DNA of 64,000 bases from Chloroflexota bacterium. Its GTDB lineage: Bacteria; Chloroflexota; Anaerolineae; Anaerolineales; UBA4823. This document shows, one piece after another, positions 10,780 through 53,305 of the stretch (its first letter is position 1; every line of letters begins with the position of its first letter). The stretch lies in the NCBI GenBank assembly GCA_029265355.1, contig JAJUJL010000017.1, forward strand, positions 1 through 64,000, written 5' to 3'. Below the pieces are notes generated by a model, which worked only from the letters and a program-made list of their open reading frames with translations, was not told the DNA's origin and did no database searches. Made by a program: the position numbers and the translations under genes.

Positions 10780-10792
10780 CCACGCCAGAAAC

Positions 10793-12868: not shown

Positions 12869-12928
12869 AGCCCGGCCTTTTGCTCAAATCTTCAGAAGTC
12901 TACATCATAATTTCACGCAATTGCACCC

Positions 12929-12956: not shown

Positions 12957-12982
12957 TCAGCAGTTGAATTTTGGAAATGTTC

Positions 12983-19356: not shown

Positions 19357-19373
19357 TTGAGTCGAGGGTCAAA

Positions 19374-20375: not shown

Positions 20376-20444
20376 CGCGAAACGGCCGCGGCCCACCCGG
20401 AGCTTGCTCCAGATGAGCGAGCTTTCCGGCACGGAGAGGCGTGA

Positions 20445-21374: not shown

Positions 21375-21426
21375 CTTTGACAATTTTCATCACCTCGCAC
21401 AAAAGAAATCGGAAACTGGAGGCTAT

Positions 21427-22494: not shown

Positions 22495-22539
22495 CAACGC
22501 TCGGATTACCAGGGTGTATCACGATCTGCCCCCAAGCCG

Positions 22540-23631: not shown

Positions 23632-23661
23632 TTTTCAAATTCGGCAGGACACCTCGACCCA

Positions 23662-35811: not shown

Positions 35812-38558
<2,747 letters not shown>

Positions 38559-38622: not shown

Positions 38623-39480
38623 ATGACAGAACTCTCAAAAATGTTCGATTTGACCGGCAGAACGGCGGTTGTTACGGGCGGCGCTGGTCTGCTGGGCAAA
38701 GAATTCTGCCGCACCCTGGTACAGGCTGGTGCATCGGTCGTCGTGGCCGACATCTCGGCCGCGGCAGCCGAGCAGACCGCGCAGGAGATCGCCGCTGATG
38801 CAGCCGGCTCTCCAGCGCGAGCGCTGGCAATCGCTTGCGATGTCGCCAGCCCACAGTCGGTGCAGGCCATGGTCACCCAGACCCGTCGCGTATTCGGAAG
38901 CCTGGATATTTTGGTGAACAGCGCGGCGATGGACCCCAAGGTCGATTCGCAAGCCAATTTGCAAGATGGGCTGTCCCAGCATGGCGAGCGCACGAACGCC
39001 TTTGAGGATTACCCCCTGCAAGCCTGGAACCAGGCTTTGGAGGTCAACCTGACTGGAGCCTTTTTGTGCTGCCAGGCTGCCGGGCGTGTCATGCTGGAGC
39101 AAGGACGCGGTGTGATCATTAACCTGTCTTCCATCTACGGACTGACCGCCCCAGACCAGCGCCTGTACCAGAGGGAAGGCAGACCACCCCAGTACAAGCC
39201 CGTGTATTACACAGTGACCAAAGCTGGCATCATCGGGCTGACCAGCTACCTGGCCGCTTACTACGCTGGCAAGAACATTCGCGTCAACGCTCTCACGCCC
39301 GGCGGCGTATTCAATGGTCACGACGCAGCTTTCGTCCAGGCCTACTCCGCCAGAGCAATTCTGGGGCGCATGGCAGACAAGCGTGATATGAACGGCGCGC
39401 TGCTGTTCCTGGCATCCGATGCCTCTGCTTACATGACCGGGGCAAACCTGATCGTTGATGGAGGTTGGACAACTTGGTAA
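38623..39480 (+). CDS. Short-chain dehydrogenase/reductase
   Basis: 285 aa from ATG 38623 (an in-frame ATG at 38593 lies inside the hairpin region and is unlikely). VVTGGAGLLGKEFCRTLVQA binds NAD(P); ILVNSAAMDPK is the N-A-A/G strand; NLSSIYGLTAPDQRLYQREG supplies the catalytic Ser; and PVYYTVTKAG gives Tyr-x3-Lys. VNALTPGG and GANLIVDGGWTTW complete a classical SDR. Similar SDRs beside NeuA/NeuB genes in flagellin-glycosylation loci reduce or oxidise sugar intermediates. The next gene overlaps it. Confidence 0.85.
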   Translation: MTELSKMFDLTGRTAVVTGGAGLLGKEFCRTLVQAGASVVVADISAAAAEQTAQEIAADAAGSPARALAIACDVASPQSVQAMVTQTRRVFGSLDILVNSAAMDPKVDSQANLQDGLSQHGERTNAFEDYPLQAWNQALEVNLTGAFLCCQAAGRVMLEQGRGVIINLSSIYGLTAPDQRLYQREGRPPQYKPVYYTVTKAGIIGLTSYLAAYYAGKNIRVNALTPGGVFNGHDAAFVQAYSARAILGRMADKRDMNGALLFLASDASAYMTGANLIVDGGWTTW

Positions 39481-40097
39481 AATCGCCCAAGGGTGTTTCC
39501 AGCGGCTTGCCGCGCACCGGACATTTCAGTTTCACACGCCCGGCAGAGCCGGGTGATTACTGCATCCTGCTGACGCCCGCGCAGGATGCCTATCTGGAGC
39601 GACTGCGCCGGCACCAAATGGATCTACAGATGCTGTTCGGCGGGCGGCTGCCGGAGCCCACCCATCTCACCTGCAACCGCTTTGAGGTGCCAGACAAGAA
39701 AAACCTCGACCTGTTGCAAAAAGCGCTCATCCACCGGTTATCAAAAGTAACCCCATTCACCCTGAAACCGATCGCCTACATCCCTCAATACTCGCCGCTG
39801 CGCTTCACCCACATTCTCAAGTGGCAGGTCGAAGAAGATGACAATCTGCGCAACCTGCACAGGTTAATCGAAGAGGCGCTGGAAGTTTCTAGCTCGACCT
39901 CGATGTATCCTCGTGGCTGGACCTCCACGCTGGTAACCGCATTGGAGGAAATCCAACCCGTCAAACTCAACTCGCACGCGATTTCGATACCGTTTTGTGA
40001 CCCGCTCTTCACTGTCGGCGAAGTGCTGATCACCCATATTCGCGGCAAGAACGATTTCCAACCCATTGCCTGGATTCCCCTCTCAGGTGCTCCATGA
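39474..40097 (+). CDS. Uncharacterised protein, possibly a degenerate 2H-phosphoesterase-like fold
   Basis: 207 aa. I chose TTG 39474, nine bases after GGAGG at 39460-39464; TTG 39465 is too close to that site. A THLTCNRFEV motif near residue 63 resembles the first His-x-Thr of 2H (RNA-ligase/cyclic-phosphodiesterase-like) proteins, but at the expected second site the sequence reads GWTSTLVTALEE, without His. If the fold is right, catalysis of the usual kind is unlikely. It lies between an SDR and a NeuA gene and overlaps both, so it is probably part of the nonulosonate or modification pathway. Function unknown. Confidence 0.6.
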   Translation: MVKSPKGVSSGLPRTGHFSFTRPAEPGDYCILLTPAQDAYLERLRRHQMDLQMLFGGRLPEPTHLTCNRFEVPDKKNLDLLQKALIHRLSKVTPFTLKPIAYIPQYSPLRFTHILKWQVEEDDNLRNLHRLIEEALEVSSSTSMYPRGWTSTLVTALEEIQPVKLNSHAISIPFCDPLFTVGEVLITHIRGKNDFQPIAWIPLSGAP

Positions 40098-40831
40098 AAA
40101 CGCTGGCCTTGATCCCCGCCCGCGGGGGTTCAAAAAGCATTCCACATAAGAATATCCGCAATTTCGCCGGGCACCCATTGATCGCGTTCAGCATCGCCGC
40201 AGCGCTGGCCTGCGAGTCGATCGAGCGGGTGATTGTATCCACCGACGATGCTCAAATCGCGGCCGTGGCTCGCCAGTACGGCGCTGAGACGCCTTTCCTT
40301 CGCCCAGCCGAATTTGCCCAGGATCACACCCCTGACTTGCCGGTTTTTCAGCATGCCTTGCGCTGGCTGAGCGATCAAGAAGGCTACCACCCCGATATCG
40401 TCGTGCAGTTGCGTCCCACATCTCCCCTGCGCCGGGTGCAGCACATCGATGGTGCAGTTTATCGCTTGATGGAGAGACCAGATGCTGACTCGGTGCGCAC
40501 GGTGTGCGTTCCCTTTCAAAACCCATTCAAAATGTGGCGCATCGGCGCGGATGGCCTGATGCAGCCGCTGTTGCAAACCGAATTCAAAGAAGCTTACAAC
40601 ATGCCCCGCCAGGCGTTGCCAGAGGTCTACTGGCAAACCGGCTATGTGGATGCCGCCTGGGCGGAAACCATTCTTGAGAAAAATTCTATGACCGGAGAGC
40701 GCATACTGCCCCTGGTGATCGATCCGAGCGAGTGGATCGATATCGATTCGCCCGACGATTGGCGCCGGGCGGAGCGCATGCTCGAAAATCATGAGATCAC
40801 CTGGGACGATTTAGGCTTCAGCTTAGGCTGA
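40094..40831 (+). CDS. neuA: Acylneuraminate cytidylyltransferase (CMP-nonulosonate synthetase)
   Basis: 245 aa. LALIPARGGSKSIPHKNIRN is the CTP-binding motif; VQLRPTSPLRRVQHIDGAV and YWQTGYVDAAW follow, with WIDIDSPDDWRRAE at the end. No HAD domain is attached, unlike the enzyme at 34603, so it probably acts on a free (non-phosphorylated) acid. ATGA overlap upstream; 38 bases downstream begins the NeuB-SAF-TIM fusion, its likely partner. Confidence 0.88.
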   Translation: MKTLALIPARGGSKSIPHKNIRNFAGHPLIAFSIAAALACESIERVIVSTDDAQIAAVARQYGAETPFLRPAEFAQDHTPDLPVFQHALRWLSDQEGYHPDIVVQLRPTSPLRRVQHIDGAVYRLMERPDADSVRTVCVPFQNPFKMWRIGADGLMQPLLQTEFKEAYNMPRQALPEVYWQTGYVDAAWAETILEKNSMTGERILPLVIDPSEWIDIDSPDDWRRAERMLENHEITWDDLGFSLG

Positions 40832-40869: not shown

Positions 40870-42777
40870 ATGCCTGTCATCAAAATTGGAGATCGCCTGG
40901 TAGGCGATGGACAACCCACTTACATCATCGCCGAGATCGGCGTAAACCACAACGGAATTCTGGACCTGGCCATCGAATTGATCGACGCCTCGGTGGATGC
41001 CGGTGCGGATGCGGTCAAGTTTCAAAAACGGCAGCTCGACCAGTTGTACTCGAAGAAGTACCTGGATAACGCCAACGCCGGGGAGAAGACGCTGCGCTAC
41101 CTGCTGCCCATTCTGCAGCGCGTGGAGCTGCCCGACGAAGCCTACTATCGTATTCTGGATTATTGCAAGAAAAAAGGCATCACCTTTATGTGCTCTGCCT
41201 TCGATCCCGTCAGCGCCGATTTCCTGGCCGAGCTGGGTGTACCGGCGTACAAAGTGGCCTCGGCTGACTTGACCAATATTCCGCTGCTCGATCACCTGGC
41301 CAGCAAGGGCAAGCCCTTGATTCTCTCAACCGGTATGTCGCGCATCGAGGAAGTGGAATTTACCGTCAACTTCCTGAAACAGCGCCAGGTCGATTTTGCG
41401 CTGCTGCACTGCAACAGCACCTACCCGGCGGCCTTCGAAGACATCAACCTGCGCTTTATGGAGCAATTGCGCCGCTTTGGCGTACCGGTGGGTTATTCTG
41501 GGCACGAGCGCGGCATCGCTGTTTCGACCGTGGCCTCTGCGCTCGGCGCCAGCATCATCGAACGCCACATCACCCTCGATCGCACCATGGACGGCCCCGA
41601 CCATGCTGCCAGCCTGGAACCACACGGCTTCAAGAAGATGGTGCGCGACATCCGCCAGGTAGCGATGGCGCTTGGCACCGGTGAGGAGAAATTCATCTCC
41701 CGCGGCGAAATTCTGAACCGGGAGGTACTGGGCAAGAGCCTGGTTGCCACCCGGCGAATCGAGCCTGGTGAACCGATCACAGCCAGCCTGATCCGGGTCA
41801 AAGGCCCTGCACTCGGACTTTCGCCCCAGCGCTATCCAGAGCTGGTTGGGCGCATCGCTGAGCGGGTGATCGAAGAGGACGAGCCATTCCTCGAACGCGA
41901 CCTGGGACTGGAGATTCGCCTGGATGTCGAGCATACCCTACCGATGGAATATGGTTTCACCGTGCGCTTCCGAGATTACGACGAAATGCTGGCATACCAG
42001 CCGAAGATGCTGGAATTCCACTTCACCGACCAGGACCTTGATGAAACTTACCCGGGCACACAGCACAATCTCAAGCTGGTGGTGCACGCTCCCGAGTTCT
42101 GGGAGCGCACCCTGGTAGACCTGTGTTCCCTGGACGAGCGCCAGCGGCAAGACTCGGTCGCCTTGATGCAAAAATCCATCAACCTGACCCGCACCATCGC
42201 CCCCTATTTCGTGGGCACGCCCAAGGTGATCATCCATCCGGGTGCAATGAGCCTGGATCATCCCATCACCGATCGCCAGCGGCTGTACGATAACCTGCGC
42301 CGCTCGGTGCAGGAGCTGGATTACCAGGGTGTGGAGCTGCTGCTCGAGAACTTGCCGCCGCACCCCTGGTATTTTGGCGGGCAGTGGTTGACCAACGCCT
42401 TTATGGATGCTTACGAAATCCGCGAGTTTATCACCTCGTTGGGCCTGAATATGTGCTTCGACACCTCCCACTCGAAGCTGTATTGCAACTGGGCGCACGT
42501 CGATTTCTACGAGCAAGTGCGCGTGCTGCTGCCCTATGTGCGCCACCTGCACCTGGCGGACGGCGCTGGTTTAGATGGCGAGGGGTTACAAATTGGCGAA
42601 GGCACCATTGATTGGGTGCACTTCTTCGAGGTGATTGGGGACTATCACGGCACCATGATCCCTGAAATCTGGCGAGGGCACCAGCGCCAGGGCGAAGGGT
42701 TTCTGATTGCCATCCAACGTCTCTCTGACGCTTATTTCAAAGCGCACCAGAAGTTGGGTCAATCCGCGCAGGCCTGA
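40870..42777 (+). CDS. neuB: Fusion of NeuB-type nonulosonate synthase, SAF domain and xylose-isomerase-like TIM barrel
   Basis: 635 aa, nearly twice the usual length; GGAGG precedes the ATG. Residues 1-285 are a NeuB barrel ([77 protein letters not shown]). Residues about 285-350 are the SAF domain (KSLVATRRIEPGEPITASLI). From about 355 to 635 is a second TIM barrel of the sugar-phosphate isomerase/AP-endonuclease-2 type: LKLVVHAPEF, VIIHPGAMS, LLLENLPPHPWYFGG, LNMCFDTSHSKL and VRHLHLADGAGLDGEG, with His/Glu/Asp metal ligands apparent. The second barrel may isomerise or epimerise the synthase substrate or product, so that one polypeptide couples two steps. Confidence 0.88.
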   Translation: MPVIKIGDRLVGDGQPTYIIAEIGVNHNGILDLAIELIDASVDAGADAVKFQKRQLDQLYSKKYLDNANAGEKTLRYLLPILQRVELPDEAYYRILDYCKKKGITFMCSAFDPVSADFLAELGVPAYKVASADLTNIPLLDHLASKGKPLILSTGMSRIEEVEFTVNFLKQRQVDFALLHCNSTYPAAFEDINLRFMEQLRRFGVPVGYSGHERGIAVSTVASALGASIIERHITLDRTMDGPDHAASLEPHGFKKMVRDIRQVAMALGTGEEKFISRGEILNREVLGKSLVATRRIEPGEPITASLIRVKGPALGLSPQRYPELVGRIAERVIEEDEPFLERDLGLEIRLDVEHTLPMEYGFTVRFRDYDEMLAYQPKMLEFHFTDQDLDETYPGTQHNLKLVVHAPEFWERTLVDLCSLDERQRQDSVALMQKSINLTRTIAPYFVGTPKVIIHPGAMSLDHPITDRQRLYDNLRRSVQELDYQGVELLLENLPPHPWYFGGQWLTNAFMDAYEIREFITSLGLNMCFDTSHSKLYCNWAHVDFYEQVRVLLPYVRHLHLADGAGLDGEGLQIGEGTIDWVHFFEVIGDYHGTMIPEIWRGHQRQGEGFLIAIQRLSDAYFKAHQKLGQSAQA

Positions 42778-42795: not shown

Positions 42796-44490
42796 ATGCC
42801 AACCCCCCAAAAACTGCTCAACCGACTGAGCCAGCGCGCCTCTGGCTGGCGTAACCAGCTCCGGCAACGCCGCCGCATCGCCCAGCTCGCCCGCCAGGTG
42901 GCTGAAAACGCCCCGCCGCCGACACAGTCAGCGCCGGTGGTAGTATTCAACGCCTCCACACGCCTCTCCGACTTGAGCCTGAATGCCGCCTTCTCGCTGC
43001 TGACCTCTTGGAGCTTGCGCTTGAGCGGCGTGCCGGTGGTGCAATTCAACTGCCAGCGCGGTATGAGCCAGTGCGTACTGGGCAGCGCCTATGCCTTGAG
43101 TACTCGCCTGCAAGATTACCCCGGGCCGCCGCCGTGCGACACTTGCATCGCACAATCCAAGCGCCTGTACGCTGGCGGAGACGTGCACGCCTTCCATTAC
43201 CGGGTTGACCAGGATTTGGCGGCGAAACTGGCGGAACTGGATGTGCCCGCCCTGAGCAATTTCGAATATCTGGCTGAAGGAGAGTTCTCCGCGCCAGCTC
43301 CCCTCGGGCGCCTGGTGCTACCCTCCATCCGCTGGGCCTTGCGCCGCCATACGCTCCCAGACGACGAACCCACACGCTACCTGCTGCGTGAGTACATCCA
43401 ATCAGCCTACCAGGTGGCAAGGCAGTTTGCCGAACTCATACGGCGCATCCAGCCGCAGTGCGCGGTGATCTTCAACGGCGTGATGTATCCAGAAGCAGCC
43501 GCCCGCTGGGCCGCGCGCCAGCTTGGGTTGCCCACCGTTGCCCATGAGGTTGGTTTTACTCAGTATTCAACCTTCTTCACCGCAGGCGAGCCAACTGCCT
43601 ATCCAATACACCTGCCCAGCGATTTCGAGCTCAACGCCGAGCAAAACGCCCGCCTGGACGACTACCTGAGCAAGCGCTTCCAGGGCAAGTTCACCATGGC
43701 AGGCATCCAGTTTTGGCCTGAAATGCGCGGCCTGGATGCTGCCTTCCTGGAAAAAGCGGCTCGCTTTCGGCAAATCGTGCCGGTCTTTACCAACGTGGTG
43801 TACGACACCAGCCAGGTACACGCCAATGTCATCTTTCCCCACATGTTTGCCTGGCTCGACCTGGTGCTGAAAGTGATCCGCGATCATCCGCATACGCTGT
43901 TTGTGATCCGCGCTCACCCTGACGAGATGCGCCCTGGCACAGCCAAGCAATCCAACGAGAGCGTGCGCCAGTGGGTGCAGACGAACCGGGTGGACCAGAT
44001 GGATAACGTGGTCTTTATCGACTCGCAGGAGTACATCAGCTCATACGAGTTGATCCAGCGCGCCAAATTTGTCATGGTCTATAATTCCTCGATCGGTATG
44101 GAAGCAGCGCTGATGCACAAGGCTGTCTTATGCGGCGGGAAAGCGCGCTACACGCAGTATCCGATCGTTTTCTTCCCGCACAGCCCCGAAGCGTACGAAC
44201 AGCAAGCGCAAGCATTTCTGCAGGCTGAGCAGGTGATTGTCCCAACAGAATTCACGCGCAATGCCCGCCGCTTTTTGTATTACCAGCTCTATCGCGCCTC
44301 TTTGCCGATGAGCAATTACCTGCAAGTTGCGCAGCGCAAAGGTTTTGTGGAGCTGCGCGACTTCTCCTGGCAAGACTTACTGCCAGAACGCTCGCCCACC
44401 ATGCAAGTGCTGCACGCCGGCATTCTGCATGGGCAGCCTTTCCTGATGCCGGAAGAAGACTTGCAGCAGAGCGAGCCCCGTTCCGCCTAG
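42796..44490 (+). CDS. Capsule-polysaccharide-biosynthesis-like protein (GT-B fold)
   Basis: 564 aa. It begins with a very basic, possibly membrane-associated segment. GYxxQ-type motifs are absent, but CDTCIAQSKRLYAGG (two Cys), NGVMYPEAAARWAARQLG, LFVIRAHPDEMRPG and AKFVMVYNSSIGMEAALMHK are present. The last two are the His-Pro and SSIGMEA donor-site motifs shared by capsule GT-B enzymes, as in the protein at 16804. It follows the NeuB fusion by 18 bases; since this superfamily includes enzymes using CMP-sugars, it could transfer the nonulosonic acid (inference). Confidence 0.62.
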   Translation: MPTPQKLLNRLSQRASGWRNQLRQRRRIAQLARQVAENAPPPTQSAPVVVFNASTRLSDLSLNAAFSLLTSWSLRLSGVPVVQFNCQRGMSQCVLGSAYALSTRLQDYPGPPPCDTCIAQSKRLYAGGDVHAFHYRVDQDLAAKLAELDVPALSNFEYLAEGEFSAPAPLGRLVLPSIRWALRRHTLPDDEPTRYLLREYIQSAYQVARQFAELIRRIQPQCAVIFNGVMYPEAAARWAARQLGLPTVAHEVGFTQYSTFFTAGEPTAYPIHLPSDFELNAEQNARLDDYLSKRFQGKFTMAGIQFWPEMRGLDAAFLEKAARFRQIVPVFTNVVYDTSQVHANVIFPHMFAWLDLVLKVIRDHPHTLFVIRAHPDEMRPGTAKQSNESVRQWVQTNRVDQMDNVVFIDSQEYISSYELIQRAKFVMVYNSSIGMEAALMHKAVLCGGKARYTQYPIVFFPHSPEAYEQQAQAFLQAEQVIVPTEFTRNARRFLYYQLYRASLPMSNYLQVAQRKGFVELRDFSWQDLLPERSPTMQVLHAGILHGQPFLMPEEDLQQSEPRSA

Positions 44491-44519
44491 AGCGCATATC
44501 GTTCATGGATGGAGATCTG

Positions 44520-45458
44520 ATGGGTATGGCAATCCCTCCCAACACCGCCCAGGCCGACAGGTTGAAAGACCGAATCGAGATCCTTTCTGTAGAGCTGCTC
44601 GAGCAGCAGCGCCCACTGGTGACGCGGCTGCGTCGCCTGGCGCGCTCACTGCACCTGGAGTTCGGCTGGCATTATCTGCTCGACCTGAGCTGGATTCTCT
44701 CGCAGGTGGGCAACACCCGCAGCGCCAGCAGCGCTCCGCTGCGCATCCTCGACGCTGGCGCTGGCACCGGACTGATCCAGTGGTACCTGGCAGAGCAAGG
44801 CGCTGAAGTGATCAGCGTCGACCGCATGAGCCGGGCGCACTTACCCTTGCGCTTCCGCCAGCGCTTTCGCGTCCAGGGCCTGCGCAAGCAGGATCTTGCC
44901 CCCACCCGCCAGGTCTTCCAGAATAATTGGAAAGGGGCGGGCAAACTACAGGTTAAGCTCGTCAACCAGCTCAAGGAGCTGAGCAGCCTGGCGAATCTGC
45001 ACCGCTCGGCCGGCAAGGTGTTTATTTACAACCAGGATCTGCGCAACCTGGCAGATATCCCCGACAACAGCATCGATGTGGTGGTATCTGTGTCCGCCCT
45101 GGAGCACAACCCGCCGGAAGACCTTCCCCTGGTGCGAGCGGAACTGCTGCGCGTGCTGCGTCCCGGCGGCGCGCTGCTGGCAACCTTGTGCGCCGCAGAG
45201 CAACAGGACTGGTTTCACCAGCCCTCGCAGGGCTGGTGCTACACCGACGCCAGCCTGCGACGGTTGTTTGCCCTTGCAGAAGATGTCCCATCCAATTACG
45301 ACCGCTATGCCGAGCTATTCCAGGCATTGCGCGGCTGCGAAGAGCTGCGCAAAAACCTGGCGCGTTTTTACTACCGCTCCGGGGAAGGTGGTATGCCCTG
45401 GGGAGTTTGGGATCCTAAATACCAGCCGGTGGGTGTTTGCAAAACCAAGGCCGGGTAG
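44520..45458 (+). CDS. Class I SAM-dependent methyltransferase
   Basis: 312 aa from ATG 44520, with GGAG at 44510-44513 upstream; ATG 44505 and 44526 are alternatives. RILDAGAGTGLIQWYLAEQG is motif I, VISVDRMSRAHLP motif II, and IPDNSIDVVVSVSALEHNPP motif IV; LRVLRPGGALLATL follows. An extra helical region lies between motifs II and IV (about residues 125-165). A stop-overlapping palindrome follows the gene, and then the carrier-protein gene begins 72 bases downstream, so it may or may not share that operon. Confidence 0.82.
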   Translation: MGMAIPPNTAQADRLKDRIEILSVELLEQQRPLVTRLRRLARSLHLEFGWHYLLDLSWILSQVGNTRSASSAPLRILDAGAGTGLIQWYLAEQGAEVISVDRMSRAHLPLRFRQRFRVQGLRKQDLAPTRQVFQNNWKGAGKLQVKLVNQLKELSSLANLHRSAGKVFIYNQDLRNLADIPDNSIDVVVSVSALEHNPPEDLPLVRAELLRVLRPGGALLATLCAAEQQDWFHQPSQGWCYTDASLRRLFALAEDVPSNYDRYAELFQALRGCEELRKNLARFYYRSGEGGMPWGVWDPKYQPVGVCKTKAG

Positions 45459-45530: not shown

Positions 45531-45782
45531 ATGGACGATATAAAAACAGCCCTGACCAGGCAAATCCAAAACTTGCTGGTGGAGGCCTTGAAAGCCTCGC
45601 CAGAGATGGTCACGCCGGAGTTGTCGTTTGGCGACCTGCCGCAGTGGGATTCGATGGGCCACATGGAGGTCATGTTGGCGTTGGAGCTGCACTACGGTGT
45701 GGAGATCAATGCCGACACCATCGCCAACCTGGTCAGTATCCCCGCCATCTGCAGCTACCTGGAGGCGAACGGACATGCCTGA
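45531..45782 (+). CDS. Acyl/aminoacyl carrier protein
   Basis: 83 aa, the usual size for a carrier protein. The phosphopantetheine-attachment motif is WDSMGHMEVM, with Asp40-Ser41-Met42; the Ser would carry the 4'-phosphopantetheine arm. The flanking pattern (FGDLPQWDS; VEINADTIANL) is that of a stand-alone carrier domain. It overlaps the amino acid:[carrier protein] ligase gene by eight bases, so the two are made together, and that ligase is the likely source of its cargo. An adjacent phosphopantetheinyl transferase was not found. Confidence 0.9.
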   Translation: MDDIKTALTRQIQNLLVEALKASPEMVTPELSFGDLPQWDSMGHMEVMLALELHYGVEINADTIANLVSIPAICSYLEANGHA

Positions 45783-47028
45783 AATCACGCTCGAGATTGT
45801 GCCAGCAGTTGTCATCCCAACCCACCTGACCGGCGAGGTGCAGTCCAAGCTGGCGTATGTGGACCAGGGGATCGCAAAAGCGGTTGTATCGGCAGATGGT
45901 TTGCACATCACCCTGCACCTGCATCAGCAGCCAAATAGCGCCGAACGCTCTCGTCTGGAAGAAAAAGTGCAGCGCGTGGTTACCAGCCTGGCGCGCGGCG
46001 CCATCCAGCCCAAAGTGCAGGTGCTGGAAGACTTCATGGATAGGCCGGTTCGATACCACCAGGATCCAAACGATGTTCTTTTGGCGCGCGGTGAAATGAG
46101 CCAGGAAGCCCAGGGGATCTTCACCCTGGGTCCGTTGGTCACCCGGCTCATCGAGTTCTTCGAAAATCAATTCCTGGGACTGGCAGCCTCCTTCAATGCT
46201 GCGCCATACCGCTTCCCGACGCTCATTCCGGCGCGCTACCTGGAGCGCGTCAACTACTTTCGCGCCTTCCCCCATTCGCTCAGCTTTGCCACCCACCTGC
46301 GCGAGGACCTGGATGTGATCGATGATTTTGCCCAGCACGCTGCCTGCGATCATGAACACCTCCTCGGAGCTTTGAACACGTCGGCTGAATCGTTCGCCCC
46401 TATTCAAACGCTGCTTTCACCAGCGGTGTGCTACCACCTGTACTTCTCCCTGGCAGACAAACCGCTGCCAGGCGGGCAACTTGTTGCTACCGCGGTGGGC
46501 AACTGCTTCCGCTATGAATCCTTCAACCTGCGTTCATTGGAGCGCCTGTGGAATTTCACCATGCGCGAGATCATCTTCGTTGGTTCGAAGGATTTCGTGC
46601 TGCAAAACCGCGAGCTTGCCCGCCAGGAAATGGCGCAGCGCCTGGAAAAAATCGGCCTGGCGTACCGGGTGGAAAGCGCCAACGATCCTTTCTTCATCGG
46701 TGAATTCCGCAAGCAGGCCGCTTTCCAATCTGCCTTCCAACTCAAGTACGAGATCCGCGCCAGCTTGCCGTTCAAAAACGCCACCCTGGCGGTTGGTTCG
46801 TATAACTACCACCAGGATTTCTTCGGTCGCAACCTGAACATCAGCCTGCCGGACGGGTCGGGCGCGCCCGCCGGGGCGCCCGTGCACACCGGCTGCGTCG
46901 CCTTCGGCCTGGAGCGCATGGCCTACGCCTTCCTGGCGCAGTTCGGGCCGGAACCTGCAAACTGGCCGGCAGTGGTGCGCGATTGGATTAAAACCAGCGC
47001 CGCTCCCCAAAACCCTGGAGGCGCTTGA
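45775..47028 (+). CDS. Amino acid:[carrier protein] ligase, class II aminoacyl-tRNA synthetase-like
   Basis: 417 aa from ATG 45775, nine bases after GGAGG; the frame runs open to 45628 inside the carrier-protein gene. Residues about 110-400 resemble the catalytic core of atypical seryl-tRNA synthetases and of the amino acid:[carrier protein] ligases described in Bradyrhizobium. Motif 2 is NCFRYESF (Arg246, Glu248) and motif 3 is HTGCVAFGLERMAYAFLAQF (Arg381). Cys219 (SPAVCYHLY), Glu248 and Cys374 fall where those enzymes bind zinc. There is no tRNA-binding coiled-coil arm; the N-terminal 110 residues are a different domain. It should activate a small amino acid (Gly or Ala in known cases) and load it on the adjacent carrier protein. 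Confidence 0.85.
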   Translation: MPEITLEIVPAVVIPTHLTGEVQSKLAYVDQGIAKAVVSADGLHITLHLHQQPNSAERSRLEEKVQRVVTSLARGAIQPKVQVLEDFMDRPVRYHQDPNDVLLARGEMSQEAQGIFTLGPLVTRLIEFFENQFLGLAASFNAAPYRFPTLIPARYLERVNYFRAFPHSLSFATHLREDLDVIDDFAQHAACDHEHLLGALNTSAESFAPIQTLLSPAVCYHLYFSLADKPLPGGQLVATAVGNCFRYESFNLRSLERLWNFTMREIIFVGSKDFVLQNRELARQEMAQRLEKIGLAYRVESANDPFFIGEFRKQAAFQSAFQLKYEIRASLPFKNATLAVGSYNYHQDFFGRNLNISLPDGSGAPAGAPVHTGCVAFGLERMAYAFLAQFGPEPANWPAVVRDWIKTSAAPQNPGGA

Positions 47029-47540
47029 TGGCAGAACCGGTCCAGACGGTCTCGTACCGGGAAGCAACGGAAGCCGATTTCCCGGTCATTAAAGGCATGT
47101 ACGAGCAGCTCAACAGCTACTTTTACCAGGTGGGCTACCGCCTGCCGCACCCGGAGAATGTGGGCGAGATCTGGCTGGATTCTTTTCGCCGCACGCTGGG
47201 TCGATTCAGCAATGTGCATGTCGCCGAGATGGAAATCGATGGACAAAAACAGGTGGTTGGGTTCATGCTGTGCCGGCTGAAGCGCGTGCCAGCTTACATG
47301 GGAGGCGTCATAGTGGGCGAGTTGAGCGACATGTGGATCGATGGGCGCGCCCGGCGCATGGGCATCGGCGATAAGCTCTCCCGCCTGGCAATCGAATGGA
47401 TGCGCCAGCAAGGCGCACATTCGATTGAGATCCAGGTGCTGAAGGATAACGAGGCCAGTTGGAAGCTGTACGAGCGCATGGGCTTCAAACTGGAATTTCG
47501 TGTTGGCAGGCTGTTGTGGGACGAGTATGAAGAAGGTTGA
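47028..47540 (+). CDS. GNAT-family acyltransferase
   Basis: 170 aa from ATG 47028, sharing bases with the ligase stop (TGATG). VSYREATEADFPVIKGMYEQ opens the fold; SDMWIDGRARRMGIGDKLSR is the motif A cofactor loop (Arg-x-x-Gly-x-Gly/Asp-type), and LKDNEASWKLYERMGFKLEF is motif B. GNAT enzymes acylate amines with acyl-CoA. Here, in direct line with an aminoacyl-carrier-protein system, it may take the aminoacyl group from the carrier, or N-acetylate the amino acid once attached (both inference). Confidence 0.82.
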   Translation: MAEPVQTVSYREATEADFPVIKGMYEQLNSYFYQVGYRLPHPENVGEIWLDSFRRTLGRFSNVHVAEMEIDGQKQVVGFMLCRLKRVPAYMGGVIVGELSDMWIDGRARRMGIGDKLSRLAIEWMRQQGAHSIEIQVLKDNEASWKLYERMGFKLEFRVGRLLWDEYEEG

Positions 47541-48333
47541 AGTAGCCCAGGCACTCGCTGCGCTGAAGGCTGTCGGTGTGCAGCCAGGCGATGGACTGCT
47601 GGTGCATTCTGCCATCCAGTTCCTGGGATTGCCGCAGGGCGGGACAGGCCTGTATTACCAGGCGCTGTGGTCGCTCCTGGAAGACAAGCCCCTTGGCAGC
47701 GACCTGCCGCAGCCGCTCGAACAAGGCACCCTCGCCGCCCCGACCTTCAATTTTGCTTTTGCCCGCGGCGAACCCTACGATCCCCAAAACACGCCATCGC
47801 AAGGCATGGGCGCTTTCTCCGAATACCTGCGCCAGCTCCCATTTGCTCTGCGCACGCCTCATCCCATGCAATCCCTGGCAGTCATCGGACGTTACGCGCA
47901 TGACCTGGCAAGCCGGGATACCCTCTCAGCATTCGATCCTGGTTCGGCATTTGAGCGCATGCTGGCGTTGGACTTCAAGTTGCTGCTGTTGGGCGCAGAT
48001 ATCCAGGCCGTCTCGATGCTGCACTACAGCGAGCAGCGCTGCGCCGTGCCTTACCGTTACTGGAAGGATTTCACAGCCCCTTACCGGACCCCACAGGGCT
48101 GGCAGTCCCGCACTTACCGCATGTTCGTTCGTGACTTGAGCATTGATCCGCAGCGTGGCGGGCCGCGCATCGAGCTTTACCCGGTGCAGGCGGTCCTGGA
48201 ACAGCGCCGGCTGTGGCGCTCTGTCACATTGAATTACGGGCAAGTCGCGGTATGCCATCTGCGGGATTTTGTGACAGTGCTGGATGAATTCCTACAGGCA
48301 GACCCCTGGTCGCTGGTGACCAACCGCCCGTAG
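47527..48333 (+). CDS. AAC(3)-family N-acyltransferase
   Basis: 268 aa from ATG 47527; overlaps the GNAT gene by 14 bases. GDGLLVHSAIQFLG, GTLAAPTFNFAFARGEPYDP, TPHPMQSLAVIGRYAHDL and LLLGADIQAVSMLHYSEQRC correspond to the conserved segments of aminoglycoside 3-N-acetyltransferases. Many members in surface-glycan loci are not resistance enzymes but acylate amino groups of sugars. In this operon the acyl donor could be an aminoacyl- or acyl-carrier protein rather than acetyl-CoA. Substrate not determined; no reason to read it as a resistance gene. Confidence 0.82.
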   Translation: MKKVEVAQALAALKAVGVQPGDGLLVHSAIQFLGLPQGGTGLYYQALWSLLEDKPLGSDLPQPLEQGTLAAPTFNFAFARGEPYDPQNTPSQGMGAFSEYLRQLPFALRTPHPMQSLAVIGRYAHDLASRDTLSAFDPGSAFERMLALDFKLLLLGADIQAVSMLHYSEQRCAVPYRYWKDFTAPYRTPQGWQSRTYRMFVRDLSIDPQRGGPRIELYPVQAVLEQRRLWRSVTLNYGQVAVCHLRDFVTVLDEFLQADPWSLVTNRP

Positions 48334-48404
48334 AACAATCGGTTAGCATGCTGATAACACAGACTGGGCAGGCTGACAGCCTGGCCAACAACAGGAAAGA
48401 ACAC

Positions 48405-49868
48405 TTGAGCCACTCAAATTCGAGCAGCATGATGGAGCTGATCCAGGAGTTGTGGTACCTGAAACGCGATATTGTCTCTGATGGGTATGATCAAGCGTTG
48501 GAGCGACTCGCTGGCGAAGCCGCCCGTCGCAACCTGCCGCCGGTGCGCATGCACACCTATCCCACCGGCGAGGCCTGCTGGACCTGGCGTGTGCCCGAGA
48601 AATGGACTTGCCAGGAAGCCTACCTGGAAACCTTGACTGGGCAGCGCCTGCTGGATTACGCAGACCACCCATTGCACGTCATTTCTTACTCCCTGCCATT
48701 CGAGGGTGTCGTCAGCCGCCAGGAGCTGCTCGAACATCTGCACGTCCATCCCCATCTGCCGGAGGCTATCCCATTCGTTTTCAAATACTATGAGCGCGAT
48801 TGGGGACTTTGCTGCTCAAGGACTCTGCGTGACAGCCTGCTGGAGGACGCATACCGGGTGGTCATCCGCACCCGCTTCGAACCGGGCAGCGCCAAAGTGG
48901 CGGAGATCGTGCTTCCTGGAGAAAGCGAGCAGAGCTTTATCCTGGCGGCGCACCTGTGCCACCCGGCCATGGTCAACGATGACCTGACCGGCGTGGTGGT
49001 GGGTCTGCAGGCGATCACCGCTCTGAACGCCCTGCCCCGGCGCTACACCTACCGGCTTCTCATCTTGCCAGAGACCATCGGTTCGGTGGCTTACCTCAGC
49101 CACAACGAAGACTTGATCCCCAAGATGGTGGGGGGATTGTTTCTCGAGATGCTGGGCAATGACTCCCCGCATGCCCTGCAGGCATCCTTTCAACCGAACA
49201 GCCAGGTGGATCGCATCTTGAGCGCCGCTTTCCCTGAACTGGAGCCCGACGGATACCAGGCCCCCTACCGCAGCATCATCGATAACGATGAGCGCCAGTT
49301 CAACGCCCCAGGGGTGCGCGTGCCGATGCTCTCTCTGTCTCGGGTGGAGGCGCCCAAGGCCTCCGGGCGCCCGCCTTATGCACAGTACCACTCCAGCCAG
49401 GATACACCCGAGATCGTCAACCAGGAGCGCCTGGAACGATCCTGCCGCACTGCACTGGGACTGATCAACGCCTGGGAACGCCAGGCTGACTCCCAGCGCC
49501 GCTCCCCAGAGATTGCCGGCGCACCCGCTCTTAAAAACCGCCGCCACCCCGAGCTGCAGCTCACAACCCGCGCCGGGGAGCGCGCTCCCCGCGAGAGCGC
49601 CTATGTCGTCAATCTGTTCAAAGGCGAAATTTTTTGCTCAGGCTACGGCATCTGGATCGATTACCGCACCAACCCGCAAGGTCATCGCCAGCTTTTCCAG
49701 ATCATGGAGCGCTGCGACGGCGAACACACGGCGACCGATATCGCTGCTGAGCTGCAAATTGATTTCGACGCGGTTTGGAGCGTCATCAGTTTGCTGCACG
49801 AAAAAGGGCTGGTTGCCTTCAGCCCAGCGCCGCAGCCCACAGATCCGCACAAACTACCTCTACCATGA
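48405..49868 (+). CDS. DUF4910 aminopeptidase-like (M28-type fold) protein with C-terminal winged helix
   Basis: 487 aa from TTG 48405, six bases after AGGAAAG; ATG 48348 and ATG 48429 are alternatives. The DUF4910/DUF2172 group has a zinc-aminopeptidase-like fold: AAHLCHPAMVNDDLTGVVVG (His, Asp ligands), ILPETIGSVAYL (Glu pair), GLFLEMLGND and YAQYHSSQDTPEIV (His). All expected metal residues appear present, so it may be catalytic. The last 80 residues (MERCDGEHTATDIAAELQI) form a winged helix/PqqD-like domain. Next to the aminoacyl-carrier genes, it may hydrolyse or transfer an aminoacyl amide on a sugar (inference). It overlaps the following sulfotransferase as ATGA. Confidence 0.8.
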   Translation: MSHSNSSSMMELIQELWYLKRDIVSDGYDQALERLAGEAARRNLPPVRMHTYPTGEACWTWRVPEKWTCQEAYLETLTGQRLLDYADHPLHVISYSLPFEGVVSRQELLEHLHVHPHLPEAIPFVFKYYERDWGLCCSRTLRDSLLEDAYRVVIRTRFEPGSAKVAEIVLPGESEQSFILAAHLCHPAMVNDDLTGVVVGLQAITALNALPRRYTYRLLILPETIGSVAYLSHNEDLIPKMVGGLFLEMLGNDSPHALQASFQPNSQVDRILSAAFPELEPDGYQAPYRSIIDNDERQFNAPGVRVPMLSLSRVEAPKASGRPPYAQYHSSQDTPEIVNQERLERSCRTALGLINAWERQADSQRRSPEIAGAPALKNRRHPELQLTTRAGERAPRESAYVVNLFKGEIFCSGYGIWIDYRTNPQGHRQLFQIMERCDGEHTATDIAAELQIDFDAVWSVISLLHEKGLVAFSPAPQPTDPHKLPLP

Positions 49869-50728
49869 ACGCCTACTACACCGTCAAATCGTGGGGCAAG
49901 CTGGCGCGCTGGCAGCTTCGCCGCCTATCCACCGCCCGCCGCTGGGGCTGGCGCGAAATGCAGCGCATGCCCGCTGTCTTGGGCAATGCCATGCCCAAGT
50001 CTGGCTCACACCTGATCATCCAGGTTCTGCAGGGGTTGACGCGCCTGGGGCCTTTCACCAATCCAGGTTTCCCACCGGTTACCCGCGGTGAAGATAATCA
50101 CAAACTCAGCGAGGCTGAAATCTTAGCGAATATCCAGCGCATGCGCCCTGGGGATATTGGCTACGGATATATCAGCGCCCAGGAACCTTTTCTCACTGCG
50201 CTGTCTGGCAGCGGGAGAGCGACCATTTTTGTCTACCGCGACCCTCGCGACATGATCGTATCCCATATCTTCTACGCCACGCAAATGCACCCCAGGCACT
50301 GGATGCGGCGCTATTACACCGAACAGCTTTCCACGATGGAAGAGCGCATCGACGCCGCCATCAAAGGCGTGCAAGAGCCTGGCTCAGAGCTCACGCCCAT
50401 CCGGCAGCGCTACCTGGGCTACCTGGGCTGGCTGGAACAGCCGGGAGTGCTGAGCCTGCGCTTCGAAGACCTGATCCTGGAGCGCAGCGCGGCTTTTGGG
50501 CAGCTCTTGGATTACCTGGAGGAGCGCGGCTTCAGCCCCCGCCTGCCGCGCAGCCAGGCAATCTCCATCCTGGAGCAGGCCATCGCCCCCAAAAAATCCG
50601 GCACATTTCGCAAAGGCAAACCCGGCAACTGGCGCGAGCACTTTACGGATCGCAACATCGCCACCTTCAAAGAGCACACCGGCGATCTGCTGCTGCGCCT
50701 GGGATACGAAAACAGCCTGGATTGGTAG
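49865..50728 (+). CDS. PAPS-dependent sulfotransferase, tandem paralog 1
   Basis: 287 aa from ATG 49865 (ATGA overlap); the frame open from 49775 is inside the previous gene. PKSGSHL at residues 44-50 is the PAPS 5'-loop and VYRDPRDMIVSH at about 123-134 the 3'-phosphate site. YLGWLEQPGVLSLRFEDLIL and KKSGTFRKGKPGNWREHF are the substrate-side and C-terminal PAPS-binding (RKGxxGxW) motifs of the Sulfotransfer_1 family. The following gene is a clear paralog. Likely sulfates a sugar or lipid hydroxyl. Confidence 0.87.
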   Translation: MNAYYTVKSWGKLARWQLRRLSTARRWGWREMQRMPAVLGNAMPKSGSHLIIQVLQGLTRLGPFTNPGFPPVTRGEDNHKLSEAEILANIQRMRPGDIGYGYISAQEPFLTALSGSGRATIFVYRDPRDMIVSHIFYATQMHPRHWMRRYYTEQLSTMEERIDAAIKGVQEPGSELTPIRQRYLGYLGWLEQPGVLSLRFEDLILERSAAFGQLLDYLEERGFSPRLPRSQAISILEQAIAPKKSGTFRKGKPGNWREHFTDRNIATFKEHTGDLLLRLGYENSLDW

Positions 50729-50742
50729 ACACTCTGCCGGTT

Positions 50743-51615
50743 ATGATCTCACTGCCATCCAAGTTAAGCCTGCAAGCCCGACTCGTGCGCCGTAACCTGC
50801 GCCGCACGGCGCAGGCGCTGCGCTACCGGCGCTTATCACTGTCGGGCGTGCCGGTGCTGTTCGCAAACTCCTTCCCCAAGAGCGGCACGCACTTGCTCAC
50901 CCAGGTTTTAGCCGGCTTCACGCGCCTCGGCCCGGCGGTGAACAGCGGTTTACCGGCTGTGGTCACCTACGAAGGCAGCAGCGGCAGAGAACGCACCCCA
51001 GCGGAGATCCTTGGCGATCTGGCGCGCCTGCAACCCGGCGATATCGCTTACGGTCACTTGCATGCCCAACCCGAAACGATCGAGTTCTTGACGCAGCCCG
51101 GTTTTACAACTTACTTTATCCTGCGCGACCCGCGCGACGTGGTGGTCTCCCACGTGCACTATGTCACCGAGATGGAGCCAGGGCACATTTTGCACGCCTA
51201 CTATACCCAGGAGCTGCACAGCTTCGAAGAGCGGCTGCGCACCAGCATTCTGGGTCTGCCGGAGAGCAGTTTCTCCTTTCCGGACATTCGCCAGCGCTTC
51301 GAGCCATTCCTGGGATGGCTAGAACAACCGCAGGTCTTGACCCTGCAATATGAAGAACTGATACTGGAACGCAGTCGCGGGCTGGAACGCATCCTCGAAC
51401 ATGCTGTGCGGGGAGGCTTTTTCCTATCCATTAGCCGGCAAGACGCCCTGAAGATTTTGGAGAACAGCATCGATCCCCAACGCTCGCCCACCTTCCGCAG
51501 TGGAAAGGTGGGTGGCTGGCAGAAACATTTTTCCCCAGAGAACCGCCGCCTTTTCAAAGAAGTCTCTGGCGACCTGCTGATCCGCCTGGGGTATGAATCT
51601 GGCTATGACTGGTAG
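50743..51615 (+). CDS. PAPS-dependent sulfotransferase, tandem paralog 2
   Basis: 290 aa from ATG 50743 (a TTG at 50722 would overlap the previous stop). PKSGTHLL at 45-52, ILRDPRDVVVSH, FLGWLEQPQVLTLQYEELIL and RSPTFRSGKVGGWQKHF align along the full length with the enzyme upstream, so the pair is a tandem duplication, diverged enough for different acceptor positions. In the last motif the first basic residue after Arg is Ser (FRSGKVGGW against FRKGKPGNW), a mild change in the PAPS-binding site. Confidence 0.86.
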   Translation: MISLPSKLSLQARLVRRNLRRTAQALRYRRLSLSGVPVLFANSFPKSGTHLLTQVLAGFTRLGPAVNSGLPAVVTYEGSSGRERTPAEILGDLARLQPGDIAYGHLHAQPETIEFLTQPGFTTYFILRDPRDVVVSHVHYVTEMEPGHILHAYYTQELHSFEERLRTSILGLPESSFSFPDIRQRFEPFLGWLEQPQVLTLQYEELILERSRGLERILEHAVRGGFFLSISRQDALKILENSIDPQRSPTFRSGKVGGWQKHFSPENRRLFKEVSGDLLIRLGYESGYDW

Positions 51616-52582
51616 TTCCACTCCGGTTGCAAGCATCGTTATTCGCGCCTACAACGAGGAAAAGCACATCGGGCGGCTGTTGGAGGGCATCCTGCAACAA
51701 ACCCTGTACCGGCATCAGCCTCGACTGGTAGAGATCATCCTGGTCGATTCTGGCTCCAGCGACGCCACCCTCGCCATCGCCAGCCGCTACCCGGTTCAAA
51801 TTGTGCATATCCGCCCCGAAGAATTCTCCTTCGGTCGCTCCTTGAACCGCGGCATCGCCCAGTCGCGGGGAGAGTTTATCGTGATCGCCAGCGCGCATGT
51901 CTACCCGGTTTATCCCGATTGGCTCGAACGTATGCTGGCGCCTTTCCAGGATGCGCAGGTGGCGCTGGTCTATGGCAAACAGCGCGGCAATGCCGACTCG
52001 CACTTTTCCGAGCAACAGATCTTCGCCCGCTGGTTTCCGGAAGAATCGATCCCGCGCCAGAGCCACCCTTTTTGCAACAACGCCAATGCCGCGATACGGC
52101 GCTCGCTGTGGCAACAGCGCCCGTACGATGAAAGCCTTTCCGGCCTGGAAGACCTGGAATGGGCGCACTGGGCGATGGAGCAGGGGTACGCCATCTCCTA
52201 CTCGGCTGAGGCGGAGATCATCCATGTGCACAATGAAACGCCAACCGCCGTGTTCAACCGCTACCGGCGGGAAGCCATGGCCTTCAAGCGCATCTTCCCG
52301 CAAGAACAATTCCACCTGTGGGATTTTGCACGCCTGTTTACCAGCAACGTCATCAACGACCTGGTACAGGCTGCCCGCCAAAGAAACCGCAAGGCTGGCC
52401 CTCTTTCCACCACCCGGCAAATCTTATGGTTTCGCTGGATGCAGTTTTGGGGCACCTACCAGGGCTACCGGCAATCTGGCCCGCTCACCTCGCAGCTTCG
52501 CCAGACGTTTTACTATCCCCAGGGCGCCCCGATCACCGCAAAAGAACCGCGGGATGTCGAGCCGATCCAATACCGCTCCTGA
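51605..52582 (+). CDS. Family 2 glycosyltransferase
   Basis: 325 aa from ATG 51605 (ATG 51593 also in frame), overlapping the sulfotransferase stop by 11 bases. SIVIRAYNEEKHIGRLLEGI, EIILVDSGSSDATLAIA and FSFGRSLNRGIAQSRGEFIV form the GT-A donor site; IVIASAHVYP replaces the DXD motif with Ser-Ala-His, a variation seen in rhamnosyltransferase-like GT2 enzymes. ESLSGLEDLEWAHWAMEQGY supplies the Glu-Asp catalytic segment. Cytoplasmic, inverting. Sugar unknown. Confidence 0.84.
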   Translation: MTGSSTPVASIVIRAYNEEKHIGRLLEGILQQTLYRHQPRLVEIILVDSGSSDATLAIASRYPVQIVHIRPEEFSFGRSLNRGIAQSRGEFIVIASAHVYPVYPDWLERMLAPFQDAQVALVYGKQRGNADSHFSEQQIFARWFPEESIPRQSHPFCNNANAAIRRSLWQQRPYDESLSGLEDLEWAHWAMEQGYAISYSAEAEIIHVHNETPTAVFNRYRREAMAFKRIFPQEQFHLWDFARLFTSNVINDLVQAARQRNRKAGPLSTTRQILWFRWMQFWGTYQGYRQSGPLTSQLRQTFYYPQGAPITAKEPRDVEPIQYRS

Positions 52583-52630
52583 ACGGCCTCGCCTCCCCCG
52601 CGTGAATCACTCAAAACAGGCAAGAGATTT

Positions 52631-53305
52631 ATGACACCACATATCGTCGCCCTTGTGCCCATGCGCCATCATTCCCAGCGCGTACCCGGCAAGAATTACC
52701 GCAACCTGGCAGGGAAGCCGCTCTACCAACACGTGGTCAGCACCCTGCTTGGTTGCCCAGACATTGCCCAGGTAGTGGTTGACACCGACAGCCCGGTGAT
52801 CATCGAGGGGCTGCAAAAGTCGTTTCCCCGGGTGCACATCATCGAGCGCCCCGAACACCTGCGCGCCGATCAAATCCCAATGAATGAAGTGCTGGTGTAC
52901 GACACCAGCCAGGTGCAGGCCGACCTGTATTTGCAGACTCACAGCACCAACCCGCTGCTCAGCGCACAGACTTACTCGCGGGCGATCCAGGCTCTATTGA
53001 ATCACTACCCAGCTTACGACTCCCTTTTTTCGGTCACTCGCCTGCAAACGCGCCTTTGGGATCAGCTTGGCCGGGCGATCAATCACAACCCGGCCATCCT
53101 GCTGCAAACCCAGGATCTACCCCCCGTATATGAAGAAAATTCATGTATTTATATCTTTCGCAAAGAGCACCTCGTCAACCGGCGCAACCGCCTGGGGGAA
53201 CGACCGCTGATGTTCGAGATCAGCGCCGAAGAAGCCTGGGATATCGATGACGAACTGGATTTCCTTGTGACCGAATACCTGCTGATGCGCAAGTCTCAAG
53301 TGTAG
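52631..53305 (+). CDS. NeuA-type cytidylyltransferase
   Basis: 224 aa. VALVPMRHHSQRVPGKNYRN is a variant CTP-binding motif (Met-Arg-His-His-Ser where NeuA has Ala-Arg-Gly-Gly-Ser); LYLQTHSTNPLLSAQTYSRA and EAWDIDDELDFLV follow. The changed loop suggests a separate substrate from the two other NeuA enzymes. No NeuB lies next to it; instead a 2-hydroxyacid dehydrogenase and an SDR follow, so it may activate a nonulosonate modified by them or another acid sugar. Confidence 0.82.
   Translation: MTPHIVALVPMRHHSQRVPGKNYRNLAGKPLYQHVVSTLLGCPDIAQVVVDTDSPVIIEGLQKSFPRVHIIERPEHLRADQIPMNEVLVYDTSQVQADLYLQTHSTNPLLSAQTYSRAIQALLNHYPAYDSLFSVTRLQTRLWDQLGRAINHNPAILLQTQDLPPVYEENSCIYIFRKEHLVNRRNRLGERPLMFEISAEEAWDIDDELDFLVTEYLLMRKSQV

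Follow-up and report, generated by a model that had tools for sequence, protein, structure and literature searches.

Several bacterial systems decorate the cell surface with amino acids without recourse to tRNA. In AlmEFG (glycylation of Vibrio lipid A) and DltABCD (D-alanylation) the amino acid is held on a dedicated carrier protein (CP), and both systems use AMP-forming ligases of the ANL type together with membrane transferases. A second class of carrier-protein ligase, typified by the Bradyrhizobium and Agrobacterium enzymes (Bll0957; PDB 3mey and 4h2s), is related to class II aminoacyl-tRNA synthetases (aaRSs). Here we describe a member of this second class that is encoded, together with four partners, by a run of five consecutive plus-strand genes (45531–49868) in a 64,000-nucleotide stretch of DNA from a Chloroflexota bacterium (GCA_029265355.1, contig JAJUJL010000017.1, positions 1 to 64,000), hereafter the window. 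The ligase shares with the Bradyrhizobium and Agrobacterium enzymes the class II core (30–32% identity), the zinc triad and an adjacent CP, but carries an extra N-terminal domain and falls in a separate clade. It differs from the AlmEFG and Dlt ligases in being a class II aaRS homolog rather than an ANL enzyme, and the candidate transferase beside it is an enzyme of the AAC(3) fold.

A review of 2022 still calls the role of such ligases unknown (PMC9437257). In a note in proof of 2010 Iyer and Aravind (PMC2922099) predicted that a ligase paralogous to seryl-tRNA synthetase (SerRS), acting with an acyl carrier protein, aminoacylates a cell-surface amino sugar through an amide; the amide-forming enzyme predicted in that note was Atu2574, whereas the window has an AAC(3)-fold enzyme with a DUF4910 protein in a defined nonulosonate locus. 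The section of the same paper on MshC, of mycothiol synthesis, describes an aaRS relative that likewise joins an amino acid to an amino sugar without tRNA, but MshC has a class I fold, no carrier protein and a low-molecular-weight thiol as product in place of a surface glycan. For DUF4910 loci of the CA_C2195 type, Table 2 of Das 2014 (PMC4000134) lists NeuB, a nucleotidyltransferase, the DUF4910 protein, an aminosugar N-acetyltransferase and an acyl carrier protein; an ATP-grasp ligase also appears in that table, and an aaRS-like ligase does not. Transacylation or deacylation of an amino sugar is proposed for DUF4910 in the corresponding text, which leaves donor and reaction undecided. The initial annotation had called this gene set, as a dedicated aminoacylation system for glycans, undescribed to its knowledge, which is too strong in view of these passages of 2010 and 2014. 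Among the top matches listed in the open-licence PMC literature, no paper places an aaRS-like carrier-protein ligase with AAC(3) or DUF4910 in glycan loci. The novelty lies in a cassette of defined membership whose genes are present or absent together, in the AAC(3)–DUF4910 pair that forms its core and is the candidate transferase, and in a clade of long ligases that spans Chloroflexota and Pseudomonadota.

Amides of the relevant kind have been reported from many bacterial polysaccharides: the pertinent section of PMC10609480 includes D-alanyl on legionaminic acid in E. coli O161, N-acetylglycyl in Shigella dysenteriae D7 and serine in E. coli O114. N-acetylalanyl amino sugars are among those listed in PMC3210612, and a glutamyl-type legionaminic acid, Leg5GluNMe7Ac, is mentioned in PMC13317340.

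The five genes are the following.

45531–45782, plus strand: stand-alone carrier protein (83 aa; PP-binding Pfam match), phosphopantetheine Ser41 in WDSM
45775–47028, plus strand: long-type class II aaRS-like amino acid:[carrier protein] ligase (ATG start, 417 aa), zinc ligands C219, E248 and C374
47028–47540, plus strand: GNAT acyltransferase (Acetyltransf_1 match); ATG at 47028, alternative start TTG at 47025
47527–48333, plus strand: AAC(3)-fold acyltransferase (AAC3; ATG start, Antibiotic_NAT match), candidate aminoacyl transferase
48429–49868, plus strand: DUF4910/DUF2172 metallopeptidase-like protein with a C-terminal winged helix-turn-helix, candidate sugar N-deacylase; the open reading frame (ORF) opens at 48348

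The arrangement claimed in the initial annotation is borne out by the ORFs: a carrier with Ser41 in WDSM overlaps a class II aaRS-like ligase (by 8 nt), and the GNAT, AAC3 and DUF4910 genes follow with overlaps or very short gaps. The AAC3 ORF overlaps that of GNAT by 14 nt; the gap between AAC3 and DUF4910 is 14 or 95 nt depending on the DUF4910 start, for which comparison with relatives makes the ATG at 48429 (MMELIQELW) likelier than the opening of the ORF. The CP match to PP-binding has an E-value of 2e-6, with W39, D40 and S41 invariant in 21 aligned rows; that of GNAT to Acetyltransf_1 has an E-value of 3e-17.

How far these genes form a unit can be seen from loci that are without them. 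Upstream of the cassette the window encodes a nonulosonate synthase, NeuB, fused to an AP_endonuc_2 domain. The sample comprised 151 genomes, taken to belong to the window's order. Of these, 28 have the ligase; among the matches listed, NeuB fused in this way occurs in 18 of the 28 ligase-positive and 13 of the 123 ligase-negative genomes. Seven of the 13 ligase-negative loci were examined; two are cut short, and in all five that offer enough contig (L101, L103–L106) none of the cassette genes was detected. These five keep the order of the window: fused NeuB, capsule-type gene, glycosyltransferase (GT), cytidylyltransferase, 2-hydroxyacid dehydrogenase, SDR and an MptE-like gene. Between the capsule-type gene and the GT lie one or two sulfotransferases (L101, L103, L105), one other ORF of 567 aa (L104) or a methyltransferase (L106). 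The converse arrangement is found in L020, which holds the five genes together at 8971–13007, followed by a gene of the phage-integrase family; the other 17 of the 22 window query genes are unmatched in its 20 kb. The NeuB genes of that genome are on another contig, and the 20 kb around its nonulosonate genes is without the five cassette genes. From the empty sites and the stand-alone set it follows that the five genes behave as one optional cassette, gained or lost together.

The same conclusion is reached from the side of the ligase. A scan of genome contigs yielded 27 relatives, 23 of them Chloroflexota loci (L002–L023, L026). A CP gene is present in 20 of the 23 and in 20 of the 20 that can be assessed: the sequences of L007 and L026 start at or inside the ligase, and in L021 a run of N occupies the place of the carrier. 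AAC3 is likewise present in 20, the remaining three (L006, L012, L014) ending just past GNAT. GNAT is found in 18 and is missing from L002–L005 and L010, all of which have CP, ligase and AAC3. DUF4910 is found in 17, five of the six others stopping too early; the copies in L002–L004 are divergent (about 220 bits, against 600–700 elsewhere). The choice of ORFs by length is unreliable in GC-rich loci, and codon-position GC was added for seven.

Failure of the neighbours to co-occur with the ligase had been named beforehand as one result that would refute the idea; across the 151 genomes the neighbours do co-occur with it. AAC3 orthologs (>200 bits; next match 110) occur in 26 of the 28 ligase-positive and none of the 123 ligase-negative genomes, and GNAT orthologs (>90 bits; next 41, among the matches listed) in the same proportions; DUF4910 orthologs (>300 bits; next 266) occur in 25 of 28 against one of 123, the sole ligase-negative genome (G1106) being 59% complete. 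All four genes are present in 24 of the 28. With kinship uncorrected, Fisher p-values against the ligase are 3e-27 for AAC3, 3e-27 for GNAT and 4e-24 for DUF4910. AAC3 lies on the contig and strand of the ligase, no more than 2.6 kb away, in 24 of the 26. The two ligase-positive genomes that have no AAC3 ortholog are one whose ligase is cut by the contig start (G1101) and one whose contig ends soon after GNAT (G1140; L108). In 25 of the 28 (exceptions G1112, G1121 and G1140) a NeuB gene shares contig and strand with the ligase and precedes it by 1.9–10.5 kb. The genome counts and NeuB positions were tallied by hand, as was the count of AAC3–DUF4910 neighbours given below. The claim that the five genes form a set thus stands as regards co-occurrence, but membership is unequal: CP, ligase and AAC3 are constant where testable, GNAT is absent from 5 of 23 loci, and AAC3 and DUF4910 also occur without the ligase.

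AAC3 matches Antibiotic_NAT (PF02522; E 3e-30, 106.1 bits against a gathering score of 25) and has a His-x-x-Glu, H165 and E168 (numbered from 47530), that is invariant in 21 rows and aligned with FrbF; we take it to be the catalytic motif of the AAC(3) fold. The profile for the aminoglycoside 3-N-acetyltransferase that acts as a resistance enzyme is not reached (NF033082; 84.3 bits, cut-off 270). The DUF4910 protein matches PF16254 (E 1e-57, 195.2 bits against a gathering score of 26.6), with a DUF2172 insert (97.8 bits against 27) and an HTH_47 match that, at 24.3 bits, lies below its 27.1. It matches PDB 3k9t with an E-value of 1.6e-53 and keeps the His/Asp/His zinc ligands of that structure as H205, D211 and H348 (counting from 48348), none of which varies in 18 rows.

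A paralogous pair of these two genes is often found in relatives without the ligase. A DUF4910 is encoded in 34 ligase-negative genomes, and in 28 of them an AAC3 on the same strand precedes it by at most about 2.1 kb. Eighteen such loci were examined, two of them cut by contig ends (L121, L124); in 11 of the 18 the order is NeuB, GT, AAC3, DUF4910, cytidylyltransferase, preceded in 10 of the 11 by a dehydratase and RmlD. Among the matches listed, an AAC3–DUF4910 pair of this second kind occurs in 28 of 123 ligase-negative and none of the 28 ligase-positive genomes (two-sided Fisher p 0.002, kinship uncorrected). As a separate observation, the two proteins are fused in L113 (genome G248), where one open frame of 708 aa occupies 7849–9975 of the reverse-complemented locus; in G028 and G255 the two matches report equal open-frame lengths (708–718 aa across the three genomes), suggesting the same fusion.

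AAC3 and DUF4910 are read here as an acyl-exchange pair acting on a sugar amine. Fifty window ORFs were scanned with Pfam, some ORFs at the window ends lying outside the scan, and among their matches there is no DUF1839, acyl-CoA dehydrogenase or sugar aminotransferase. Since no aminotransferase was seen, the sugar amine would arrive acetylated, with deacylase and acyltransferase swapping the group. We consider it likely that the five genes act as one optional cassette for decoration within a nonulosonate (sialic-acid-like) pathway of surface-glycan synthesis, and for its operation, amino acid and sugar included, we infer the following steps. The ligase would adenylate a small amino acid, whether Gly, Ala or Ser, and pass the residue to the phosphopantetheine arm of the CP; the DUF4910 zinc protein would remove the resident acyl group from the sugar amine; and AAC3 would then join the carrier-bound aminoacyl group to this amine as an amide. 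The likeliest task of GNAT, where present, would be to acylate the newly attached residue at its alpha-amine, or else another amine. CP and ligase would, in other words, supply the aminoacyl donor for the AAC3–DUF4910 pair. A bolder form of the proposal, for and against which we see equal grounds, is that CP and ligase are a transferable plug-in: aaRS chemistry and a carrier, replacing tRNA or CoA, would convert an existing nonulosonate deacylase/acyltransferase pair to aminoacylation.

The allocation of roles could be otherwise. GNAT might be the aminoacyl transferase, with AAC3 and DUF4910 merely exchanging a CoA-derived acetyl or other acyl group on the same sugar. Its orthologs are exclusive to ligase-bearing genomes and its gene directly follows the ligase in the window, such that GNAT could be the real transferase; a further point in favour of this reading is that the AAC3–DUF4910 pair is found without carrier or ligase. 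However, all five loci that are without GNAT keep CP, ligase and AAC3, and this makes AAC3 the likelier aminoacyl transferase of the two; moreover, the AAC3 proteins of ligase-positive genomes form a distinct ortholog group, set apart by the gap between 200 and 110 bits. We therefore regard a transferase role for GNAT as rather unlikely, if deserving of attention.

The exclusiveness of GNAT is one of several observations that weigh against transfer by AAC3 within a nonulosonate cassette. Carrier, ligase and GNAT are found in none of the 18 ligase-negative pair loci, and with no carrier beside these AAC3s the usual donor of the fold is here probably CoA; the AAC3 of the cassette may use acyl-CoA as well, with another enzyme unloading the carrier. 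Deacylation by DUF4910 is a candidate activity that is open to doubt, since according to the relevant part of Das 2014 (PMC4000134) the family's site has other residues in place of two that are catalytic in peptidases. L007 has room for a DUF4910 gene, yet none lies in the 4.5 kb past its AAC3. No NeuB is present in the stretch examined for five of the 18 pair loci (L111, L113, L116, L120, L123), and the pair is accordingly not tied to nonulosonates everywhere. NeuB of any kind is carried, among the matches listed, by 125 of the 151 genomes; its mere presence was consequently rejected as evidence, and only its position beside the ligase counts. Because the genomes are related, the Fisher p-values are too small and overstate independence. 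Finally, the empty sites do not define the cassette boundaries exactly: the methyltransferase that precedes the cassette in the window is missing from four of the five, and the sulfotransferases from two.

The setting of the cassette was claimed at the outset to be a surface-glycan locus, and NeuB, cytidylyltransferase and glycosyltransferase neighbours support this. The cassette lies within a long glycan region with many glycosyltransferases, and the window has three NeuB genes (21352, 35812, 40870) and four cytidylyltransferases (23662, 34603, 40094, 52631). The features nearest to it, together with a second nonulosonate locus, are as follows.

40094–40831, plus strand: PseF-like CMP-sugar cytidylyltransferase
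40870–42777, plus strand: nonulosonate synthase NeuB fused to an AP_endonuc_2 domain, upstream of the cassette
42796–44490, plus strand: Capsule_synth-family protein, probable glycosyltransferase, left flank
44505–45458, plus strand: S-adenosylmethionine-dependent methyltransferase, immediate left neighbour of the cassette
49865–50728, plus strand: sulfotransferase 1, right flank
50722–51615, plus strand: sulfotransferase 2, right flank
51593–53305, plus strand: glycosyltransferase 2 and cytidylyltransferase, conserved right flank
19143–24552, plus strand: second nonulosonate locus, dehydratase, RmlD, NeuB, GT and cytidylyltransferase, with no AAC3–DUF4910 pair

The last of these has the gene run of the ligase-negative loci without the pair that, in 11 of 18, sits between GT and cytidylyltransferase. 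The region also encodes an ATP-sulfurylase/APS kinase (36189–38558) and three sulfotransferases (32356–33552 and the two at 49865–51615), and the surface glycan is therefore probably sulfated. Two proteins with LPG_synthase_TM membrane domains are encoded at 6820–7788 and 9775–10779, and a 210-aa protein with no Pfam or NCBIfam match at 39465–40097, between an SDR gene and the PseF-like gene.

Ligases related to that of the window are not confined to Chloroflexota. Relatives occur in 44 of 398 genomes of the phylum of L025 (presumably Pseudomonadota), of the long type in 14 of them, with a truncated copy in L027 in addition. The ligase tree separates a short type, a Streptomyces-type clade and a long-type clade of Pseudomonadota and Chloroflexota (support 97/97), within which the Chloroflexota group itself is weakly supported (35/0). 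L025 (a duplicate of L072) and the fragments L026, L032 and L033 were left out of the tree, as were L001, L034 and L036–L053, which are copies of loci used elsewhere; start codons were picked by script. A carrier gene was found near the ligase in 13 of 17 long-type loci of this wider family, but not in L074, L077, L078 and L079. In L024, L027 and L086 the long-type ligase lies near a CP, a KASIII-like protein and an MBOAT protein, and in L024 also an AlgX-like protein; these look like a surface acylation unit of the Dlt or alginate type with an aaRS-like ligase. A polysaccharide deacetylase (PF01522) lies directly upstream of the long-type ligase in L079 (2874–3995), and an unscanned ORF of similar size lies upstream of the ligase in L078 (6772–7869). 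A conserved protein (about 370–390 aa where read) adjoins the ligase–carrier region in L083 (9387–10547, opposite strand) and seven more loci, and is GNAT-like by one weak Pfam match of the L078 copy.

The short-type ligases sit with acyl-CoA dehydrogenase and DUF1839 (presumably the family of Atu2574), partners that the window is without among its 50 scanned ORFs. Full-length related ligases on two Streptomyces plasmids (L069, L070) lie beside 3-hydroxyacyl-CoA and acyl-CoA dehydrogenases, a CP and nonribosomal peptide synthetase (NRPS) genes, and a further one (L100) adjoins a weak acyl-CoA-dehydrogenase-like match. This setting resembles the aminomalonyl-ACP route with an aaRS-like enzyme replacing the adenylation domain, and would suit Ser; the inference of Ser from the dehydrogenase neighbours of the Streptomyces sister clade does not carry over to the Chloroflexota cassette. 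Such NRPS-type surroundings, and the solitary set of L020, might indicate that the product of the cassette is a small, diffusible aminoacyl compound or an aminoacyl-derived building block, as in the actinomycete loci, with its glycan neighbours there by chance. We consider this very improbable, given NeuB upstream in 25 of 28 genomes, the glycan flank genes retained at empty sites, the AAC3–DUF4910 pair in other nonulosonate loci (11 of 18) and, among the Pfam matches of the five genes, no dehydrogenase or condensation domain.

The ligase itself was said in the initial annotation to match amino acid:[carrier protein] ligases. Fold, zinc triad and carrier pairing uphold this, but the enzyme is not of the standard type: it scores 155.5 bits against NF005479, the Bradyrhizobium-type equivalog, whose cut-off is 357, and has some 75 extra N-terminal residues. 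Cys219, Glu248 and Cys374 were found at these numbers, as claimed; they align with the zinc ligands of 3mey, and none of the 67 ligase rows, drawn from several phyla, departs from them in these three columns. The 67 include the duplicate pairs L025/L072 and L003/L029 and some fragments. The Pfam match to tRNA-synt_2b (E 8e-6) has 26.5 bits, below the gathering score of 29.3. The best PDB match by sequence is 3mey (E 1e-35), the next distinct type being the archaeal type-2 SerRS 3w3s (E 4e-20). An AlphaFold model (mean pLDDT 81) superposes on the Bradyrhizobium Gly:CP ligase 4h2s (4h2s_B) with Z 25.0 (rmsd 3.2 over 270 residues, 32% identity) and on the Methanosarcina barkeri SerRS 2cj9 with Z 27.3 (rmsd 2.9 over 292 residues). 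Both type-2 SerRS profiles are missed (TIGR00415, 82.8 bits, cut-off 489.55; NF002120, 122.6 bits, cut-off 611), and on these scores and the best PDB match a true SerRS was rejected. Judged from its sequence, predicted fold and adjacent carrier, the ligase is a probable member of the broad amino acid:[carrier protein] ligase family that differs from the standard Bradyrhizobium-type enzyme. Its N-terminal 75 residues are predicted to form a small ferredoxin-like fold (beta-alpha-beta-beta-alpha); a structure search with this domain gave generic matches only (Z up to 8.5), one weak match being the C-terminal domain of PheRS (Z about 7) and the archaeal SerRS domain not being among those listed; that the extra domain is a relict of the latter is unsupported, though conceivable. 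No alignment column discriminates between Gly, Ala and Ser, and the Gly or Ala proposed initially as cargo is thus not assignable, Ser being equally possible. That the ligase still charges tRNA, with aminoacyl-tRNA as substrate of the transferase, is scarcely credible: the core is about equally near SerRS and CP ligases in structure and the extra domain has its PheRS match, but the sequence is nearer the CP ligases, the carrier gene overlaps the ligase gene, the extra domain resembles a generic fold and no tRNA gene is present in the window.

For the wider family the cassette points to a particular pathway and to a position within it, and it offers a candidate transferase as well as relatives that, being without the cassette, are natural controls; the question of what these ligases are for therefore becomes one for an ordinary enzyme assay. 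If the proposed decoration chemistry is correct, glycans would acquire amino-acid amides by an additional route, one that relies on aaRS chemistry and a carrier and dispenses with tRNA. If, in addition, CP and ligase are the transferable plug-in suggested above, this would be the first worked-out biological role for aaRS-derived carrier-protein ligases and, to our knowledge, the first AAC(3)-fold enzyme with a carrier protein as acyl source. The long ligase clade would then have become linked to surface glycans on two or more occasions, its partners in Chloroflexota being AAC3 and DUF4910 and those in Pseudomonadota KASIII, MBOAT and AlgX-like proteins.

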